Assembly: GCA_029260075.1 (NCBI GenBank)
Contig: JAJDDY010000028.1
Location: 62,001 to 126,000 of the forward strand
Length of the DNA: 64,000 nt
Source: Phycisphaerae bacterium
Lineage (GTDB): Bacteria; Planctomycetota; Phycisphaerae; UBA1845
Reading direction: 5' to 3'
Shown: piece after piece, positions 15,758 to 23,837 of the stretch
Layout: each line of letters begins with the position of its first letter
Position numbering within the stretch: the first letter of the stretch is position 1
Made by a program: the position numbers and the translations under genes
Notes under the pieces: generated by a model
The model's input: only the letters and a program-made list of their open reading frames with translations
Told to the model about the DNA's origin: nothing
The model's database searches: none

Positions 15758-16457
15758 TACCGCTCCATTGAAACCGCTGACCCCGACGTTGCGGACTCCG
15801 GCAGTCCGGAGGCCATGGTGCGACCGCGACATATGTTCTTTCCTCTCCAGCCCCTTCGACCCCAGGAGCGGCATGCACCTGCGGACCGACTGCAAGGTGT
15901 GTTTGGTCGCGCTGCTCGTGGGGGACGCGCGCGGCCATAACCGCTTCTCGGCTTCATCGACCGTTGGGGAAGTCACCTAAAGACCCTGGAATCGCCGCTT
16001 TGGGGCAATAATCCAACGCTTCCGATAAGTTCGTTCCGGATGCTCAGGATTCGGTCGATGTGCGAACGCAGGCCCTGCCGCGCATTGAAGTACAGTTTAT
16101 TCCTCGCCCCGCCTCGCTCTTCGTGCGCCGCGCGTGCGGTTGACGCCACGCTTGATCTGGCCTCTCGAAGTCCCGTCCCCGTTCCACGGCGCGCGACGAC
16201 ATGGGAATGTGATCATGCCCAGGGACCGATTGCCCGGATGACTGACGCGAGTTGCTTCGATAGCACGTGAGAACCGGCTCGTCTGGCGAATGAATCGCGA
16301 ATGTAAGAAATCCTAATGACCCCTGTCAATCTGCTATACTGGTCGGCATGTGGCGGTACGGTTCGGTGCGTCGCGCGACGGCGGGGCGAGGTTGCCGATG
16401 AAATCGCCAACCTACCGAGCGTCTCGGTTTCCTTTTTCAAGTCCAGGAGTTGGTTTC
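15758..16457. other. Divergent promoter region between the signalling operon and the beta-propeller gene
   Basis: About 700 bp with no recognisable gene. It holds upstream sequences of both divergent units, including the extended -10 at 16332 for the plus-strand gene. Confidence 0.5.
16332..16340 (+). promoter_or_regulatory. Extended -10 promoter element TGCTATACT
   Basis: TG-C-TATACT, a good extended -10, about 118 bp upstream of the beta-propeller start. No clear -35 hexamer at 17 bp. The same nonamer stands before the DUF2892 gene at 22864. Confidence 0.45.
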
Positions 16458-19400
16458 ATGGTCGACAGTCGAGCACTACGTAACGTATTCGCATCGCTAC
16501 TCGCGGTCATCGTCATCGCCGCGTCAGCCGCAGTGTCTGGAGCGGCAGCCAACCGTCCGGCTCCCCCGCCCGGTACGGAGTTGGCCCCACAAGACGCCAA
16601 GTCCGACGCCGGGCCGAGTGATGCGGTAGACGCTCCCGCGCCTGACGGCAAAGGGGATTCCAGCGAGTCGGCAGATGATGCGGCCCCGGACACAGTGAAG
16701 GAAGCCGACGCGGAGAAGCCGGCGACCTCTGACGGCGCGTCCTCAGTTACACCCTCCTTGCCCAAGGAGTGGGTGGATACGCTGAAGTGGCGGTGCATCG
16801 GACCCGCGAACATGGGCGGACGCATTACGTCGCTGGCTGTCTTCGCGGATGACCCGAGCGTGTATTGGGTGGCGACAGCGTCCGGCGGTCTGCTCAAGAC
16901 GATCAACAACGGCATTACCTTCGAGCACCAGTTTGACCATGAGGCTACGGTATCTATCGGTGACGTGGCTGTGGCACCGTCGGATCAAAACGTCGTCTGG
17001 GTGGGAACGGGCGAAGCCAATCCGCGAAACAGCGTGTCGTGGGGCAACGGCGTCTACAAGTCTGTCGACGGCGGCAAGACTTGGAAGCACATGGGTCTTG
17101 AGAAAACGTTTCAGATCGCCCGCGTGGTTATTCATCCTACCGATCCCGACATCGTTTATGTTGGCGCCCTGGGCCGACTGTGGGGTGCGAACGAGCAACG
17201 CGGCCTCTACAAGACTGAAGACGGCGGCGAGAACTGGGAGAAAGTGTTGTACGTCGACGACGAAACCGGTGTCATTGATGCCCAGATGAAGCCCGGTGAT
17301 CCCGACACGCTTCTGGTGGGGACGTATCAGCGTCAGCGTGATGGATTCGATACGAACGCGCCAGCGGTCAAGTTCGGCCCGGGCAGCGGACTGTATCGAA
17401 CAACGGACGCTGGGGCTTCGTTCACGAAACTCACCGCCGGTCTTCCTTCGTGCGATCTCGGTCGCATCGGTATCGATTATTATGCCAAGGATCCCGACAC
17501 GGTTTTCGTTGTGCTTGAGTCCGAACATATCGCCAACGAGCCGGACGACGCGCCGTACGCCGGCATTCGGGGCGAGGATGTCGAGGTCGGCGCGCGCATA
17601 ACGGAGATTGTCGAAGACGGTCCCGCCAGCAAGACCGATCTCAAGGTTGGTGACATCGTCGTACGCGTGTGTGATGCCACAACCCTGTCATACGCGGATA
17701 TGGTCGGTGAATTCCGAAAGCATTCGGCAGGGGACACGGCCATACTTGAAGTTTCTCGCGACAAGACAAGTGTCCTTATCGAGTTGGCGTTTGGCCATCG
17801 TCCGGAAACCAAAGAGGAAGAGGCTGAGGACATTCCGGATACCCGTCGCCGCCCAAAACGTACGCCGTTCGCTTCTATGCTCGGCGGGCAGCGTGAAAAC
17901 CTTCAGGAGCAACAAGGGGACGACGGGCACGAATACGGCGGCGTCTACAAGTCAACCGACGGCGGCGAGAACTGGAAGCGTATCAACACCATCAACCCGC
18001 GCCCGATGTATTTTAGCGAGGTCCGCGTTGATCCGAGTGACGAGCAACATATGTTCGTGTTGGGCATTTCCCTATACCGCTCCAAGGACGCCGGTAAGAC
18101 GTTTACTTCCGACGGCGGTCGCGGCGTTCACTCGGACCATCACGCCCTTTGGATCGATCCGAAGGACGGTCGACACATGATCCTCGGTGGCGACGGTGGA
18201 CTCTATGTGACGCACGACCGAATGGAGAAGTGGGACCATCTCAACCACATGGCCATCGGACAGTTCTATGACGTGGGTGTCGGCCCGCGGCGCAACTACC
18301 GCGTCTATGGCGGATTGCAAGACAACGGCAGTTGGGGCGGACCGAGCCGGGCGCGCTCCGGTGGCGGACCGATCAATGAGGACTGGTTTCGCGTCGGCGG
18401 TGGCGACGGATTCGTCTGCCGCGTGGATCCGAACAACGCCGACTTGGTCTACTACGAAAGTCAAAACGGCAACATCGGTCGCGTGAACCTGCGCACCGGC
18501 AAGCGAGGCATTTCGCGTCCACGTCCGCCGAAGGGAACGAAATATCGCTTCAACTGGAAGACGCCGTTCTTACTTTCGCATCACAACTCGAAGATTTACT
18601 ACGCGGCCGGTAGCGTCGTATTGAAGTCGCTCGATCGGGGCAATGGGCTGAAGAGCATCTCCCCGGAAATCACGAGAACCGATCGCGGTAGCGCGACAGC
18701 GCTGGCTGAGTCGCCGGTCGACGCGGACGTGCTCTACGTGGGTACGGACGACGGCGCACTGTGGGGTTCCAAGAACGGCGGGCACGAATGGACCAAGCTG
18801 ATCGGCTTCCCCGGTGATCCCGATGACGACGATAAGGCTAGCAATGAATCGGAAGAGGGTGAGGCGACCGACGCCGCGAGCGATTCATCCGGCACGTCCG
18901 AATCAGCAGATACCGGTGTATCCGAACCGACGGCGAGCGATCGCGCGTCGCGACGCAGTGCAGCAGGCGCTGGCGACATGGTCGCTCGAATCATGAAACG
19001 CGACGCCAACGGTGACGGCAAGATTCAAGAAAGCGAAGCGCCCAAGCGAATGAAACCCATGTTCGGCCGTATCGACGCTGACGGTGATGGCGGGATCGAC
19101 CGGTCGGAGTTGGCGGTGATGGCCGAACGCATGGGCCGCCGTGGACGGGGCGATCATCAGGCTCCGCCGCCGGGCGATCGCGCTAAGAACGGTCACGCGA
19201 GGAGTGGCCATGGAGACGCCGAACCCGCGCGCAAGAAATCGAACACGGTCGCGAGCGCGAGTGACAAGACGGAGTCGCCCGAGTCGACAAAGCACGTCGC
19301 CTCCGGGTCGGCGTCAGATCCGCACGTGGCTGACGCCCAGTCCGAACCCGCGCCCCAGCCGTCTGCTGTCGAAGCTAACGACCCGCTGACCGGCGAGTGG

Positions 19401-20702
19401 TCCGCCCACGCCCTCATCGAAGGCGCCTCAGGTGGTGACGATGGATTCGCCTTGTCGTTCAAGATCGACGACGACGGCAAAGTCACCGGCACGATGGACT
19501 CGCAAATGGGTAACGGTCCGATCTCTGATGCATCGTTCAAACCGAAAACGGGTAAGCTTCGGTTCACGTTTGAAAGCGAAATGGCCGGCATGGAGTTTAC
19601 CGCGACCGTCAGCTCCGGGTCGATGAACGGATTCGCCGACATCGGCAACGGCATGTTCACCTTCGATTTCACTGCGAAACGAACAAGCGGGCGCGACGGT
19701 TCGGATGTCGCAGACGCCGGCGACGAAGCGTACGAGTGGAAGTCATTGACGGAGCTACTTCCCGGACCGCGCTGGGTCAGCTCGATCGAAGCCTCGCGCT
19801 ACGCCGAGGGTCGTTGCTATGTCACCTTGGATGGCCACCGCAGCAACGACGACGAACCCTATGTCTTCCTAACCGAAAACCATGGCGAGACGTGGCGATC
19901 CATTCGCGCCAGCCTGCCCACGTCCGCTGGTTCCACGCGCGTCTTGCGAGAGGACATCGAAAACGAAAACCTGCTCTATCTCGGGACCGAGTTCGGCGCG
20001 TGGGTCAGCATCGATCGCGGACGCAGTTGGACCCGGTTCAACAGCAACCTGCCCACCGTGGCCATCCACGAGTTTGCGATTCATCCCACCGCCGGAGAAA
20101 TCGTGGCCGCAACACATGGTAGAAGCTTGTGGGTCTTGGACGTCACGCCGCTTCGGCAGATGGCCAAGCAGGTGCTCGACGACGCGGCCACGCTTTACAA
20201 ACCGAGCGTCGCGATCTATTGGCAGCCGCGACCCGGTCGCGGCGGTGGCGGGGCACGTAGCTACACCGGGGAAAACCCTTCGGGCCAAGCACAGATTTTC
20301 TACTCGCTTAGTCAATCAGCCGGCAACATCGAACTGCGTGTGGCTGATCTATCCGGTCGAACCATCCGAGAGTTGGAAGTTGATTCAGCGCCCGGTCTTC
20401 ATAACACAGAATGGAACCTCCGCCGCAAACCCCGTAAGCGTGGCAGCAGAGATCGATCCCGCGGTGGGCGAGGCGGCGGCGGTCACGATCGTTTCAACAG
20501 GGGACGCCTCGTCGAGTCGGGCAAGTACCTCGTCGAACTCATGGTTGACGATGAGATTTTCACGCAGTTCCTCAGCGTAGAAACCGACCCAGAGAATCCC
20601 GACTACCGCCCGTGGGAACTCGAAGAAGAGGAGACGTGGCTATACCTGACCCGACCGGGAAGGGACGAAAAGCGGGACGAGTCTCTCGATCGTCCGGAAT
20701 AG
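16458..20702 (+). CDS. Exported VPS10/BNR beta-propeller protein with PDZ and EF-hand inserts
   Basis: 1414 residues from ATG 16458, with AGGAG 8 bp upstream and a signal peptide ending ...AVSGAAA. After an acidic Pro/Ala linker come sortilin/BNR-type repeats with the Asp-box-like S-T-D-G-G-x-x-W (YKSVDGGKTWKHM, YKTEDGGENWEKV, YKSTDGGENWKRI). They are interrupted at about 355-440 by a PDZ-like domain (GARITEIVEDGPASKTDLKVGD). Later inserts are an acidic linker, an EF-hand pair (DANGDGKIQESE, DADGDGGIDRSE) and a beta-sandwich unit starting DPLTGEWSA. Propeller repeats then resume (HGETWRSI, DRGRSWTRF). Such proteins are often labelled glycosyl hydrolases by similarity to GH74, but no catalytic pair was identified. 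Binding or scaffolding outside the cell is likely. Confidence 0.85.
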   Translation: MVDSRALRNVFASLLAVIVIAASAAVSGAAANRPAPPPGTELAPQDAKSDAGPSDAVDAPAPDGKGDSSESADDAAPDTVKEADAEKPATSDGASSVTPSLPKEWVDTLKWRCIGPANMGGRITSLAVFADDPSVYWVATASGGLLKTINNGITFEHQFDHEATVSIGDVAVAPSDQNVVWVGTGEANPRNSVSWGNGVYKSVDGGKTWKHMGLEKTFQIARVVIHPTDPDIVYVGALGRLWGANEQRGLYKTEDGGENWEKVLYVDDETGVIDAQMKPGDPDTLLVGTYQRQRDGFDTNAPAVKFGPGSGLYRTTDAGASFTKLTAGLPSCDLGRIGIDYYAKDPDTVFVVLESEHIANEPDDAPYAGIRGEDVEVGARITEIVEDGPASKTDLKVGDIVVRVCDATTLSYADMVGEFRKHSAGDTAILEVSRDKTSVLIELAFGHRPETKEEEAEDIPDTRRRPKRTPFASMLGGQRENLQEQQGDDGHEYGGVYKSTDGGENWKRINTINPRPMYFSEVRVDPSDEQHMFVLGISLYRSKDAGKTFTSDGGRGVHSDHHALWIDPKDGRHMILGGDGGLYVTHDRMEKWDHLNHMAIGQFYDVGVGPRRNYRVYGGLQDNGSWGGPSRARSGGGPINEDWFRVGGGDGFVCRVDPNNADLVYYESQNGNIGRVNLRTGKRGISRPRPPKGTKYRFNWKTPFLLSHHNSKIYYAAGSVVLKSLDRGNGLKSISPEITRTDRGSATALAESPVDADVLYVGTDDGALWGSKNGGHEWTKLIGFPGDPDDDDKASNESEEGEATDAASDSSGTSESADTGVSEPTASDRASRRSAAGAGDMVARIMKRDANGDGKIQESEAPKRMKPMFGRIDADGDGGIDRSELAVMAERMGRRGRGDHQAPPPGDRAKNGHARSGHGDAEPARKKSNTVASASDKTESPESTKHVASGSASDPHVADAQSEPAPQPSAVEANDPLTGEWSAHALIEGASGGDDGFALSFKIDDDGKVTGTMDSQMGNGPISDASFKPKTGKLRFTFESEMAGMEFTATVSSGSMNGFADIGNGMFTFDFTAKRTSGRDGSDVADAGDEAYEWKSLTELLPGPRWVSSIEASRYAEGRCYVTLDGHRSNDDEPYVFLTENHGETWRSIRASLPTSAGSTRVLREDIENENLLYLGTEFGAWVSIDRGRSWTRFNSNLPTVAIHEFAIHPTAGEIVAATHGRSLWVLDVTPLRQMAKQVLDDAATLYKPSVAIYWQPRPGRGGGGARSYTGENPSGQAQIFYSLSQSAGNIELRVADLSGRTIRELEVDSAPGLHNTEWNLRRKPRKRGSRDRSRGGRGGGGHDRFNRGRLVESGKYLVELMVDDEIFTQFLSVETDPENPDYRPWELEEEETWLYLTRPGRDEKRDESLDRPE

Positions 20703-20854: not shown

Positions 20855-22423
20855 CTACCCCTCAACCTTCGTGCGAAGCGGGGCGTTGAGCATTGGCGTG
20901 GCGGTTGACGCACGCATGTTCCATCGTCCGAAGAAGCTGCGGATGATGATGCCGATCCGGTGGCTATGACGTCGCCAGTCGAAGTTCCCGGAGAACAGCA
21001 TGAAGATCGACTTGGAGACGATCCCTGCACGCAGCAGGCGCAATTTGGTTTTCTCCGTGATGCCGAGCGTGGTGAGGTCGATTCCGAGGTAGTCTTTGTT
21101 GCGGTTCCAGTTATCCAAGACCTGATCGGCCGACTTGAACCCGTGGCGATCCACGATGTCCTGCAGCGGCGCGCCCGGCATCGGCGTGGCAATCGACCAC
21201 GTCATGTAGTTAACCCGTCCGAGTAGGAACTGCTTCCACACCCACCACAGCGAGTGACGTATCTCTTTCGGCGTCTCGAATTTCAGTTCCCCTTTGTCTT
21301 CCCAAAGCTGAAACGCCATCATAAACAGCAGCACACGCACCTTGTTCTTCTTCAGGAACTTGATGCACGCTTCGCTCTGCGCCACGGTGATCTTCTTTTG
21401 GATACCGTCCAGGACGCGATCGTTCGCACTTTCCACGCCAAGGTGTACAAGCCACATGTTCATCTGATTGAACAACCCAGCCAGCTCGTCGTCTACCTTG
21501 TCGGCGCGAAGATTGGACTGGAAGTAGAGGTCTTTGTGGCCGAGTTCCACAATCGCGCGGCAGACATCTTTCGCCCATGGCAGCGTGACGTTGATCTCGT
21601 CGGACACGATTTTGATCTCGCGTACGCCGAGCTGATACAGCCACTCGACCTCGAGTGCGATGTGCTCGGGCGTGCGCATCCGCACCCATGGCTTGGCGGC
21701 GCGCCACACAGGCAGCGAGCAGAACGTACACTTAAAGGGACAGCCGCGACTGATGACGATGCACATCTGCCGGTCGGACTTGCAGTAGTGCTGCCCGACG
21801 AATTTCGAGAAGTCGATCCGGTCCCATGCCATGAACGGCAGTGTGTCGAGGTCGTCGGTCGTACGCGGTTTGCCCGTATCGTGCGATCCATCGGGCGTAC
21901 GCAGCAATAGGCCGGGGATGTCGGAGAAATCGCTATCGCCACAGGCCATCTTGTTGACGATGTCAGCCAGCGTCATCTCACCTTCACCGATGCAAACGGC
22001 ATCCGCCGCGCAGTGGTCGAGCACGTGTTGTGGTACAGACGTGGGGTGTGGCCCGCCGGCGATAACGAAGACGTCGGGAAAGCGATCCTTGATGCGCGTG
22101 ATGGTTTCGTACGCGACGCGCTGCGTCAGGAACGCGAAGCTCAGGCCGTAGATTTTCGGACGCTGCTCTTCAATGATACGCAGGTGGTCCTCGGTCGTAT
22201 GGAACTGATCGAGGAAAACCACGTCGTCGCCGGAAAGCGGCGTCTCGCGCTCGACGTATGAGATCAACTGTAAAATGCCGAGGTTCGGGTAGGCTTTGTC
22301 GTAATCGTCATCCAGCGCCGGTGGATCAGCCAAGACGATTTTGAACGGGGCGATCGGGTTGCGTTGTGCTCGCGGTACCGCTCCGCTCGAAGATGGCGCG
22401 ATGGTTTTCAAGGCTACGGTCAC
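20855..22423 (-). CDS. B12-binding-domain radical SAM protein
   Basis: 522 residues. Start GTG 22423, seven bases after AGGAG. Residues about 27-160 are a cobalamin-binding-like Rossmann domain (PPALDDDYDKAYPNLGILQL, FVIAGGPHPTSVP), and about 195-420 a radical SAM barrel with the 4Fe-4S motif C-x3-C-x2-C in SRGCPFKCTFCSLPVW. A DELAGLFNQMNMWLVHLGVESAND stretch fits the SAM-binding strand. This architecture (BchE/HpnP/P-methylase-like) covers methyltransferases and cyclases acting on unactivated carbons, often in lipid or cofactor pathways. No pathway neighbours are present, so the substrate is unknown. It is convergent with the propeller gene and apparently monocistronic. Confidence 0.87.
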   Translation of the reverse strand: MTVALKTIAPSSSGAVPRAQRNPIAPFKIVLADPPALDDDYDKAYPNLGILQLISYVERETPLSGDDVVFLDQFHTTEDHLRIIEEQRPKIYGLSFAFLTQRVAYETITRIKDRFPDVFVIAGGPHPTSVPQHVLDHCAADAVCIGEGEMTLADIVNKMACGDSDFSDIPGLLLRTPDGSHDTGKPRTTDDLDTLPFMAWDRIDFSKFVGQHYCKSDRQMCIVISRGCPFKCTFCSLPVWRAAKPWVRMRTPEHIALEVEWLYQLGVREIKIVSDEINVTLPWAKDVCRAIVELGHKDLYFQSNLRADKVDDELAGLFNQMNMWLVHLGVESANDRVLDGIQKKITVAQSEACIKFLKKNKVRVLLFMMAFQLWEDKGELKFETPKEIRHSLWWVWKQFLLGRVNYMTWSIATPMPGAPLQDIVDRHGFKSADQVLDNWNRNKDYLGIDLTTLGITEKTKLRLLRAGIVSKSIFMLFSGNFDWRRHSHRIGIIIRSFFGRWNMRASTATPMLNAPLRTKVEG

Positions 22424-22863
22424 GTCAATACTCCTGTTCGTCGCTTGTCGGCGCTGCTGCGGTCAACAGTTCCAATCGTAGAACCGCCGCCCAAGTCGAA
22501 GCGGCATGCTTACGCAGTCTTCCACTCTTCGTGCGAAGGGACCGACCGCGCGTATCTACCACCGCATTGGTGATATATGGCTTATCGGAAGCGATCTGAG
22601 CGACCTGAAACACCAACCGGGAAGTGGTTCCACAAACGTGCCGTCAGCGCGCCGGTTGGCATCCTGCTTCTGCAGCGTGGTCGGTCGGCTGTCGCGGCGG
22701 TGCGATCGGATGGCTGTTGCGGAGGTATGGTTGGCGGATAGTTCAACAAGTGTGGAGCCGGCTTCCAGCCGGTGATCCATTAGCTCCTATCCTCGCGTCG
22801 CGTGCACGCCGCCTCGACCACGTGTCTCATTTGCAAACGCGCGATGCTGCGCCCGGCAAGATC
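22424..22863. other. Intergenic, repeat-bearing, no gene seen
   Basis: Upstream of the radical SAM gene. Apart from the family B copy at 22741 no element was recognised, and the reading frames look like shadows. Confidence 0.5.
22741..22780 (+). repeat. Family B palindromic repeat (copy 3)
   Basis: GTTCAACAAGTGTGGAGCCG followed by GCTTCCAGCCGGTGATCCAT. Confidence 0.8.
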
Positions 22864-22872
22864 TGCTATACT
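22864..22872 (+). promoter_or_regulatory. Extended -10 promoter element TGCTATACT
   Basis: TG-C-TATACT, 71 bp upstream of the DUF2892 start codon. Same element as at 16332. Confidence 0.4.
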
Positions 22873-22943
22873 CATGCGCGTGGTGCCAAGGTCGATTCGT
22901 TCGGCCCGCGTCTCACGGAATTGGATAACGCAGGGAATTCGCC

Positions 22944-23147
22944 ATGAGCTTAAAACCGAACATGGGCAAGGCACAGCGTATCGCGTACGTGATCCTCGGG
23001 TTGGCGATGATGGCCGCTCCGTTCGCCATAGAGCTGAAGGGTTGGATGCGCGCAGTCGTTCCGATGCTCGGCCTCGTCACACTCGTCGCCGGCGCGGTCG
23101 GCTTGTGAATGACCTTCAAGCTGCTCGGTCTGAGCGGGAAGAAATAA
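22944..23147 (+). CDS. DUF2892 (YgaP-type) small membrane protein with in-frame UGA at the conserved Cys
   Basis: ATG 22944 follows AGGG. Fifty-four residues lead to TGA 23106-23108. The N-terminus (NMGKAQRIAYVILGLAMMAAP) and two hydrophobic segments are typical of the DUF2892 family, the two-helix membrane module also fused to rhodaneses in YgaP. In family members the second helix ends G-x-C-P-L-Y-x-L-L-G. Here the same frame reads VGL-[UGA]-MTFKLLGLSGKK before TAA 23145. The UGA thus replaces exactly the conserved Cys, and the family-typical tail continues in frame, giving 67 codons with one UGA. Either selenocysteine is inserted, or the gene is truncated at residue 54 by a recent Cys-to-stop change. 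A candidate SECIS is listed separately. No selA, selB or selC is in the window. Confidence 0.7.
23121..23137 (+). promoter_or_regulatory. Candidate bacterial SECIS stem-loop
   Basis: Twelve bases after the UGA, CTGCTC (23121-23126) pairs over six base pairs (one G-U) with GAGCGG (23132-23137) around the loop GGTCT. The E. coli fdhF SECIS has its minimal stem 11 nt after the UGA and a loop containing GGUCU. The 18 nt from UGA to loop and the leading G of the loop fit general bacterial SECIS rules as I know them. It lies inside the coding tail, as bacterial SECIS elements do. Confidence 0.5.
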
Positions 23148-23183
23148 TCGTTGGGGACGCGTACGTTCAGTGGTTGGGGTCTG

Positions 23184-23246
23184 CTCGTGCTCTGTCACGC
23201 CTTAAGTGGTGCGTTCGTCCGAACCGAACCGAGCCGCGACCGTGAG
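23184..23246 (+). repeat. Family A MITE-like repeat, left half
   Basis: Left terminus CTCGTGCTCTGTCACGCC, a two-mismatch version of CTAGTGCTTTGTCAC, leading to the arm CCGAGCCGCGACCGTGAGGG. The right arm is absent; a family C repeat follows. Confidence 0.7.
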
Positions 23247-23284
23247 GGAGCGTTTTCGACCTGTCATGGCCGGATTTCAGACGT

Positions 23285-23371
23285 CGGGTGGCCCATGGCT
23301 TTAGCCGTGGGGGAGTCGAATCCAGCACCGATTCGAGTCCGCACCTCTGAAGAGGTGGGGCACCCAGGCAA
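23285..23371 (+). repeat. Family C hairpin repeat
   Basis: GTGGCCCATGGCTTTAGCCG, then TGGGGGAGTCGAATC, and after a short spacer GATTCGAGTCCGC and CACCTCTGAAGAGGTGGGGC. Internal inverted repeats (GAATC/GATTC, CACCTCT/AGAGGTG). Related copies near 24555 and 32311. Confidence 0.65.
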
Positions 23372-23534
23372 GACATGCCCGTGCCTTAGGCATGGCACCC
23401 CAAAGATGGAAGAAGCTATTCGAAAACGGCACAAGCTTCAGCGCTAGCCATCAACATACGCGGTCACCGGTGGCCACCCTCGCAACGCTACGCTGACCGG
23501 CATCGACGCGGCAAGTCGCTCTTCGAGTCTTGTC

Positions 23535-23837
23535 CTACGCATCCACCGACGCGAACATCATGTGGATGATGTCACCAGCCACCGCCATGATGTCTTTCGC
23601 CGCCGCTTTTCCTTCATCGCTGTTGAGCGCCGCGAACATCGTGTTCTTGTCTTCAAAGTAGAGCTCCGCCATCATGTAGAACTTCGGTTCGCCAGCCGGC
23701 GATCCATTCATGTGCGACACCTCAAGCTTCAGCAGCCCGTTCATTTTCTTCGCGAGCGGCAGATGCGTCTCTTGGTAATGTTTCTCGAACGCATCGACAT
23801 CATCCGGCTTCTTGTATAGCGCGACGAACTTAACCAC
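23535..23837 (-). CDS. EthD-family small protein
   Basis: 100 residues, one dimeric alpha/beta-barrel EthD domain: VKFVALYKKPDDVDAFEKHYQETHLPLAKK, then MAELYFEDKNTMFAALNSDEG and a C-terminal GDIIHMMFASVDA. The H-Y-x-E-T-H-x-P-L signature is typical of EthD and related quinone- or polyketide-binding proteins. The biochemical role of most members is unknown. It starts 2 bp after the stop of the thioesterase gene, so the two are co-transcribed and may act on one acyl or aromatic substrate (inference). Confidence 0.82.
   Translation of the reverse strand: MVKFVALYKKPDDVDAFEKHYQETHLPLAKKMNGLLKLEVSHMNGSPAGEPKFYMMAELYFEDKNTMFAALNSDEGKAAAKDIMAVAGDIIHMMFASVDA

Follow-up and report, generated by a model that had tools for sequence, protein, structure and literature searches.

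Organization of the locus

The window, by which we mean the whole stretch of 64,000 nucleotides of Phycisphaerae DNA that was analysed, contains a frame that opens with the ATG at position 22944, comprises 54 codons and meets a TGA at 23106-23108 as codon 55. In the list of open reading frames it stands as an ORF of 54 amino acids (22944..23108). Past this TGA the same frame goes on for 12 further codons, MTFKLLGLSGKK, before it ends with the TAA at 23145-23147. The continuation had been pointed out in the initial annotation and was confirmed by translation and by the ORF list. Likewise, the stem of six base pairs with the loop GGUCU at 23121-23137, which had been placed 12 bases past the UGA, was found exactly as described there. 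Its strands CUGCUC (23121-23126) and GAGCGG (23132-23137) enclose the loop at 23127-23131; the hairpin model of the family has seven pairs, the seventh (outer) one of which is unpaired at this site. The following features were assigned to the locus:

22932..22936, plus strand: AGGGA, a putative ribosome-binding site seven bases 5' of the ATG, proposed from the sequence
22944..23147, plus strand: candidate selenoprotein gene, YgaP-like TM family (PF11127/DUF2892), 67 codons including Sec55, followed by TAA 23145-23147; translated with TGA as U
22968..23027, plus strand: predicted transmembrane helix 1, residues 9-28 (AlphaFold2 model with Cys for Sec, mean pLDDT 73.2)
23046..23099, plus strand: predicted transmembrane helix 2, residues 35-52, with Sec55 three residues past its end (AlphaFold2 model)
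23106..23108, plus strand: UGA codon 55, very probably read as selenocysteine; TGA at this column in 31 homologues, other homologues mostly Cys, one clade Ser
23121..23137, plus strand: putative SECIS hairpin, six pairs, loop GGUCU; pairs visible in the sequence, covariation in 31 sequences, 31.4 bits at 23106-23141 with the Acidobacteria-only model R2

With the Pfam family PF11127 (YgaP-like TM), whose older name we take to be DUF2892, the read-through protein scored 41.2 bits as against 29.8 bits for the truncated one, so that it exceeds the curated cut-off of 25.3 bits with or without its tail. The C-terminal peptide after Sec55 reads MTFKLLGLSGK. A rhodanese domain was not matched in the 67 amino acids of the read-through protein, which is not YgaP proper (rhodanese plus TM).

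Within the window the gene seems to be isolated. Its upstream neighbour, a B12/radical-SAM gene (20855-22423, minus strand), is divergent, and the downstream neighbour, an EthD-domain gene (23535-23837, minus strand), faces it. Scanning 22424-23540 revealed neither a promoter nor a terminator, and no Rfam family was assigned at the site of the UGA and the hairpin; an Rfam match to the ClpQY promoter at 23175-23189 was set aside, since it reached 16.1 bits as compared to a gathering score of 42. Elsewhere in the window, an FlK-like protein (fluoroacetyl-CoA thioesterase family, PF22636; 23840-24388, minus strand) adjoins the EthD-domain protein, and a frame of 1450 residues (16350-20702, plus strand) contains repeats that, as we presume, resemble a sortilin/VPS10-type propeller.

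On its own, the stem in the window is not striking and proves little, because at least six of the seven pairs form in the same register after 27 of the 1925 TGA triplets on both strands of the window, 15 of these 27 also having a G as the first or second base of the loop. Therefore, the case must rest on relatives.

Relatives with UGA at the same column

Altogether, 31 homologues with an in-frame UGA at the Sec55 column were gathered, 15 from Planctomycetota and 16 from a class of Acidobacteria, the label of the latter resting on the loci L064 and L065 and the class searched being that of one of them. A protein search of 150 genomes, the window's own included, yielded 15 genomes with a match. 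Thirteen of them had exactly one internal stop, a TGA at the same column, and the other two gave weak matches without a stop. The class-wide search (397 genomes) resulted in 22 matching genomes with nine UGA forms, none beyond those already found, and the phylum-wide search (392 Planctomycetota genomes) in 22 matching genomes with three UGA forms, two of which were new. The search of the Acidobacteria class (399 genomes) gave 47 matching genomes and 16 UGA matches. As the 31 forms were gathered for having UGA, the telling point is the identity of the stop codon among all match rows. Among the match rows (E<=0.001) of the searches of 150, 397, 399 and 392 genomes, all in-frame stops were TGA, and none was TAA or TAG. 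PF11127 was matched at E<=0.01 by all 31 UGA forms, and the tail past the UGA is conserved among the relatives; in L126 the contig ends ahead of the final stop. Where the initial annotation had left the decision to relatives, these carry UGA together with a covarying stem (see below), and not TAA/TAG or decayed tails.

The GTDB contigs were scanned with a DNA pattern that consisted of UGA, a Cys codon three codons further on and the hairpin core, and that cannot catch members lacking this Cys, the window's own among them. Out of 15 stretches obtained, 12 are family members, ten from planctomycetes and two from Acidobacteria; eleven of the 12 were translated, while L060 was matched to L021 via its contig. 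Three stretches, two Mycobacterium contigs of one genome and one from an alphaproteobacterium, are out of the family and were dropped as chance. The upstream part of L021 reads N; the alignment of the 31 forms contains just the readable portion of this sequence, and the tree was calculated without L021.

The initial annotation had aligned the end of the frame with a family end G-x-C-P-L-Y-x-L-L-G, placing the UGA at the Cys. In one point the sequences deviate from this: 10 of the 13 UGA forms in the first planctomycete set of relatives read U-x-x-C, a motif present in 18 of all 31 forms, and the window protein reads U-M-T-F, without UxxC and without a second Cys. In non-UGA homologues the Sec55 column is mostly occupied by Cys and in one clade by Ser. 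It is Cys in a rhodanese-fused YgaP homologue as well as in plain PF11127 proteins, which supports the earlier proposal that Sec would replace the Cys of a YgaP-type module. One genome (G428) was seen to possess both a UGA form (L124) and a Cys form (L080) on separate contigs.

Conservation and covariation of the hairpin

The 36 bases starting with the UGA align without gaps in all 31 sequences, and in each of them a hairpin with five to seven of the seven pairs follows the UGA, three hairpins having only five. The family hairpin lies just downstream of the UGA and has a G in its small apical loop; a passage in PMC1088965 describes a small, guanosine-containing apical loop as a common feature of SECIS elements. 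In 30 distinct rows, 91.4% of the cells of the seven-pair helix are paired, compared to 30.0-48.1% when the partners were slid by one to three columns. Changes on both sides were detected in five of the seven pairs (25 cells in total), and the stem variants GUGCUC/GAGCAC, GUGUUA/UAACAC, CUGUUC/GAACAG and CUGCCC/GGGCAG were found. The covariation score amounted to 0.385 versus at most 0.114, and none of 500 shuffles reached it. Furthermore, the hairpin codons 60-64 have the same third base in 9, 9, 8, 9 and 9 of nine rows, as against a mean of 5.4 of nine before the UGA, this comparison comprising the nine rows of equal layout among the 15 planctomycete rows.

The model R2, built from the 16 Acidobacteria sequences only, was applied to the window and the 14 loci with the other planctomycete sites (106,674 bases). 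All 15 planctomycete sites ranked first, with 39.1 to 16.6 bits, and the site in the window gave 31.4 bits (E 2.6e-6). The weakest of them, in L103 (16.6 bits, E 0.03), lies near the best match elsewhere, which had 15.3 bits and fell on the complementary strand of one such hairpin. With a model of all 31 sequences, whose training set contains the window, the window site was the best in the window's genome (40.6 bits; next, 16.7) among the 150 of 2634 first-look candidates that were scored.

As a control, 31 hand-picked non-UGA homologues were inspected. They form 3.2 of the seven pairs on average, compared to 6.4 in the 31 UGA forms; the ranges of 0-5 and 5-7 pairs touch at five, a value reached by four of the 31 non-UGA homologues, and the folding energies of the two groups overlap in part. 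In most non-UGA homologues the hairpin is absent. Searching 29 non-UGA loci with the 31-sequence model disclosed weak traces at the Cys codon in L078:1663-1698 (15.1 bits, E 0.13) and L080:1504-1539 (14.0 bits, E 0.25), which may be remnants of a lost SECIS. Taken together, the stem, the homology to either side of the UGA and their repeated occurrence in 31 genomes go far beyond what chance would produce.

Selenocysteine machinery and genetic code

The genome to which the window belongs (4.92 Mb, 96.9% complete) was searched for the Sec machinery, as the initial annotation had suggested, and all parts of this machinery were recovered: SelA (475.6 bits), SelB (337.7 bits, cut-off 242.25), which adjoins SelA on contig 4, SelD (370.2 bits) and a tRNA-Sec with the anticodon TCA (69.4 bits, gathering score 47). 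All four are above their curated cut-offs. SelD of this genome is very likely a selenoprotein itself, because the sole stop within its match is a TGA, in SCAG-U-AGK. By eye, the in-frame TGA of this gene (L033:1501-2424) is seen to be followed by a hairpin GCUUCC-GGU-GGAAGC. UGA is also used as a normal stop, as it ends selB and, in the window, 10 of the 26 ORFs of at least 300 amino acids, a set that may include spurious frames. Since UGA ends selB, the code is not altered genome-wide.

Clear SelA matches were obtained in 25 of the 31 UGA genomes (9 of 13 and 2 of 2 planctomycete genomes, 14 of 16 Acidobacteria genomes). Those without one are G005, G017, G062, G103 and G974, which are MAGs of 63-80% completeness, and G764, an assembly of 1.6 Mb. 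Among the 13 UGA genomes of the 150 relatives, nine have a clear SelA, one (G017) gave a weak partial match of 27.4 bits, which is counted as a family match, and three gave none, the latter four being MAGs of 63-80% completeness. In planctomycetes, co-occurrence with SelA was ruled out as strong evidence, because SelA is common anyway (family match in 109 of the 150 relatives). As to the 31 matching non-UGA Acidobacteria genomes, SelA is present in 21; six of the 31 have Ser forms, and SelA was found in one of these six. The SelA gene L152 (G038:C353) contains one in-frame TGA at a Gly codon, which looks like a point change or an assembly error, not Sec.

Reading of the UGA codon

From the comparison of sequences we regard it as highly probable that the gene encodes a membrane protein of 67 residues, which is called short at the UGA and is read through with selenocysteine. 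A recent nonsense mutation or an assembly error in a single genome, with tail and stem as chance leftovers, is a rival reading: nonsense-like TGAs do occur in such MAGs, as in the SelA gene of G038, and a comparable stem follows 27 of 1925 TGA triplets in the window. The same TGA with a covarying stem is found, however, in 31 genomes of two phyla, and the tail is conserved, which leaves this explanation a negligible probability. A recent nonsense change with chance structure had been retained as the alternative in the initial annotation; the recurrence of the UGA in two phyla rules it out for practical purposes.

The UGA might also be the true stop of a 54-residue protein, with the hairpin being an untranslated regulatory element or a terminator. 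Although the 54-residue form does pass the PF11127 cut-off (29.8 vs 25.3 bits), the tail fits the profile and adds 11 bits, the in-frame stops in the match rows are all TGA and never TAA/TAG, the hairpin is missing in most non-UGA homologues and no terminator-like site was detected in 22424-23540; we therefore consider a true stop very improbable. Even less probable is a reading of the UGA as another residue, such as Trp, by a genome-wide code change or by general read-through. Low-level read-through at UGA occurs in bacteria, but in this genome UGA terminates selB and 10 of the 26 long window ORFs (some maybe spurious), the full Sec machinery is present, and the family column is mostly Cys, with Ser in one clade.

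Gene neighbourhood

Within the stretches examined, an ICMT-like methyltransferase is encoded near the gene in 7 of the 16 Acidobacteria UGA loci. Its best NCBIfam kin are isoprenylcysteine methyltransferase and MddA, both far under the cut-offs. An ICMT/PEMT-like membrane methyltransferase and a TPR protein are located downstream in L134:6614-8411, L136:6366-8247 and L138:297-2532. Clustering of the neighbours of 20 loci disclosed neighbours common to at least three loci among Acidobacteria loci only; none was common to at least three of the nine planctomycete loci.

At two loci, L137:5012-8560 (G560) and L139:5728-9258 (G778), sdhA and sdhB flank the gene, which also comes after an sdhC-like gene, in an sdhCAB operon. 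SdhA and SdhB pass the NCBIfam cut-offs, while SdhC of L137 reached 82.2 bits vs 96. This position would agree with a selenoprotein that has a structural or assembly role beside a respiratory complex (succinate dehydrogenase) and is not engaged in thiol or sulfur chemistry. The setting is, however, confined to 2 of the 31 UGA loci, within stretches of mostly about 1.5 kb on each side, and the frames flanking the window gene are not sdh genes, so that we hold such a role to be clearly unlikely.

Sec, Cys and Ser forms

A tree was calculated from 56 rows and 70 columns. Its bootstrap is unsettled, with about half of the forks weak, and we relied only on the Ser clade (support 100/96) and on its grouping with Cys and Sec forms (99/94). 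The Ser clade at the Sec/Cys column consists of L082-L085, L088 and L089; these six Ser forms, five close Cys forms and two Sec forms, L064 and L065, make up the larger grouping. The Sec forms do not make up one group on the tree, which needs four changes, at least two of them forced by well-supported branches. In Acidobacteria, where two Cys forms also show the weak hairpin traces, Sec, Cys and Ser forms have one gene slot in common, beside the ICMT/PEMT-like methyltransferase and/or the TPR protein. Slot sharing and tree fit a replacement of Sec by Cys and by Ser, a direction that we infer. The three forms in one slot provide a natural experiment on the gain and loss of selenocysteine.

Predicted structure and proposed function

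In an AlphaFold2 model calculated with Cys for Sec (mean pLDDT 73.2, a middling confidence), helices comprise residues 9-28 and 35-52, and a two-helix topology of the window protein is thus predicted. Foldseek gave no match of this model in the PDB at E<=0.001, and a profile of the 31 UGA forms retrieved no PDB sequence at E<=1. A planctomycete rhodanese-TM fusion matches the structure of the YgaP TM domain, 2MPN, and the Cys of the fusion aligns with Sec55. The 2MPN chain has a Ser at the aligned position, presumably a construct change. Judged by these alignments, the residue homologous to Sec55 is probably Cys159 of YgaP. According to a passage in PMC4730233, F158, C159 and G160 of YgaP constitute the C-terminus of TMH2, where the binding of thiocyanate tightens the helix packing of the dimer.

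We propose that the gene product is a small selenoprotein of the inner membrane, which has two helices and belongs to the YgaP-like TM family. Binding of the hairpin by SelB with Sec-tRNA to insert Sec at UGA is an established pathway. In the window, tRNA-Sec and SelB would decode the UGA at 23106-23108 as Sec, with SelB reading the in-coding hairpin 23121-23137, and translation would end at the TAA at 23145; Sec decoding and the hairpin are supported at the level of sequence comparison. Sec55 would reside just past TM helix 2, at the place of YgaP Cys159 and, by analogy with YgaP, probably on the cytosolic side. The membrane-anchored selenol may there attack or carry sulfur species or disulfides, and the Cys present at this column in homologues may be redox-active. 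Thiol redox or sulfane-sulfur handling is a possible chemistry, which we put forward tentatively. Because both a second Cys and UxxC are missing from the window protein, a thioredoxin-like cycle within one chain is impossible for it; with U-M-T-F and no Cys, it would therefore need a partner thiol or a dimer. A selenol at the membrane interface could also work with partner enzymes, the ICMT-like methyltransferase in some Acidobacteria and succinate dehydrogenase in others, forming a selenium-based redox or methyl-acceptor link in which Sec, Cys and Ser are kept in the same slot, a notion that we consider rather doubtful.

A probable new family and its comparison with known systems

NCBIfam release 20 contains no fitting model for any of the 31 members; five single-member matches (E 0.01-0.07) carried unrelated names. 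PF11127/DUF2892/YgaP-TM is absent from the 119 prokaryotic selenoprotein families and subfamilies given in Table 1 of PMC13188914 (2026). The passages searched in PMC12013277 and PMC9312934 contain no 'YgaP' and, among the DUF names shown there, no DUF2892. Among the open-access papers searched, no relevant one tying DUF2892 or YgaP to a selenoprotein or selenocysteine was found, and nothing relevant on selenoproteins of Planctomycetota, a comparison made without the supplementary list of PMC4807772. As far as database and literature searches reach, this is very probably a new selenoprotein family. It would add a family that is built on a very small membrane protein with two predicted helices and that spans two phyla. 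Standard bacterial gene calling would truncate the protein at the UGA, and no NCBIfam model covers the family. Moreover, it draws attention to the conserved Cys of DUF2892/YgaP-TM proteins, which are poorly understood, as their functional atom.

We take the hairpin of the window to be similar to the SECIS of E. coli fdhF in that both have a small apical loop with GGUCU, and presumably it differs from the latter by a shorter stem and a different spacing. Like known bacterial UxxC selenoproteins (PMC13188914), the family has a UGA very probably decoded as Sec, a hairpin directly downstream and UxxC in 18 of the 31 forms; unlike them, the window protein itself reads UMTF. Dsui_0042 of Azospira suillum, a DUF2892 protein, is reported in a passage of PMC5358917 to be about 10-fold up under sulfide oxidation with a minor effect of the mutant; it is likened here by its DUF2892 name, and selenium does not figure in the passage. 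Among the closest systems is the TM domain of E. coli YgaP (2MPN; PF11127), with which the window protein has in common the two-helix hairpin, predicted here, and the column of Sec55, at which the Cys of the rhodanese-TM fusion is placed. Unlike E. coli YgaP, the window protein comprises just 67 residues, is devoid of the rhodanese domain and would carry Sec in place of Cys.
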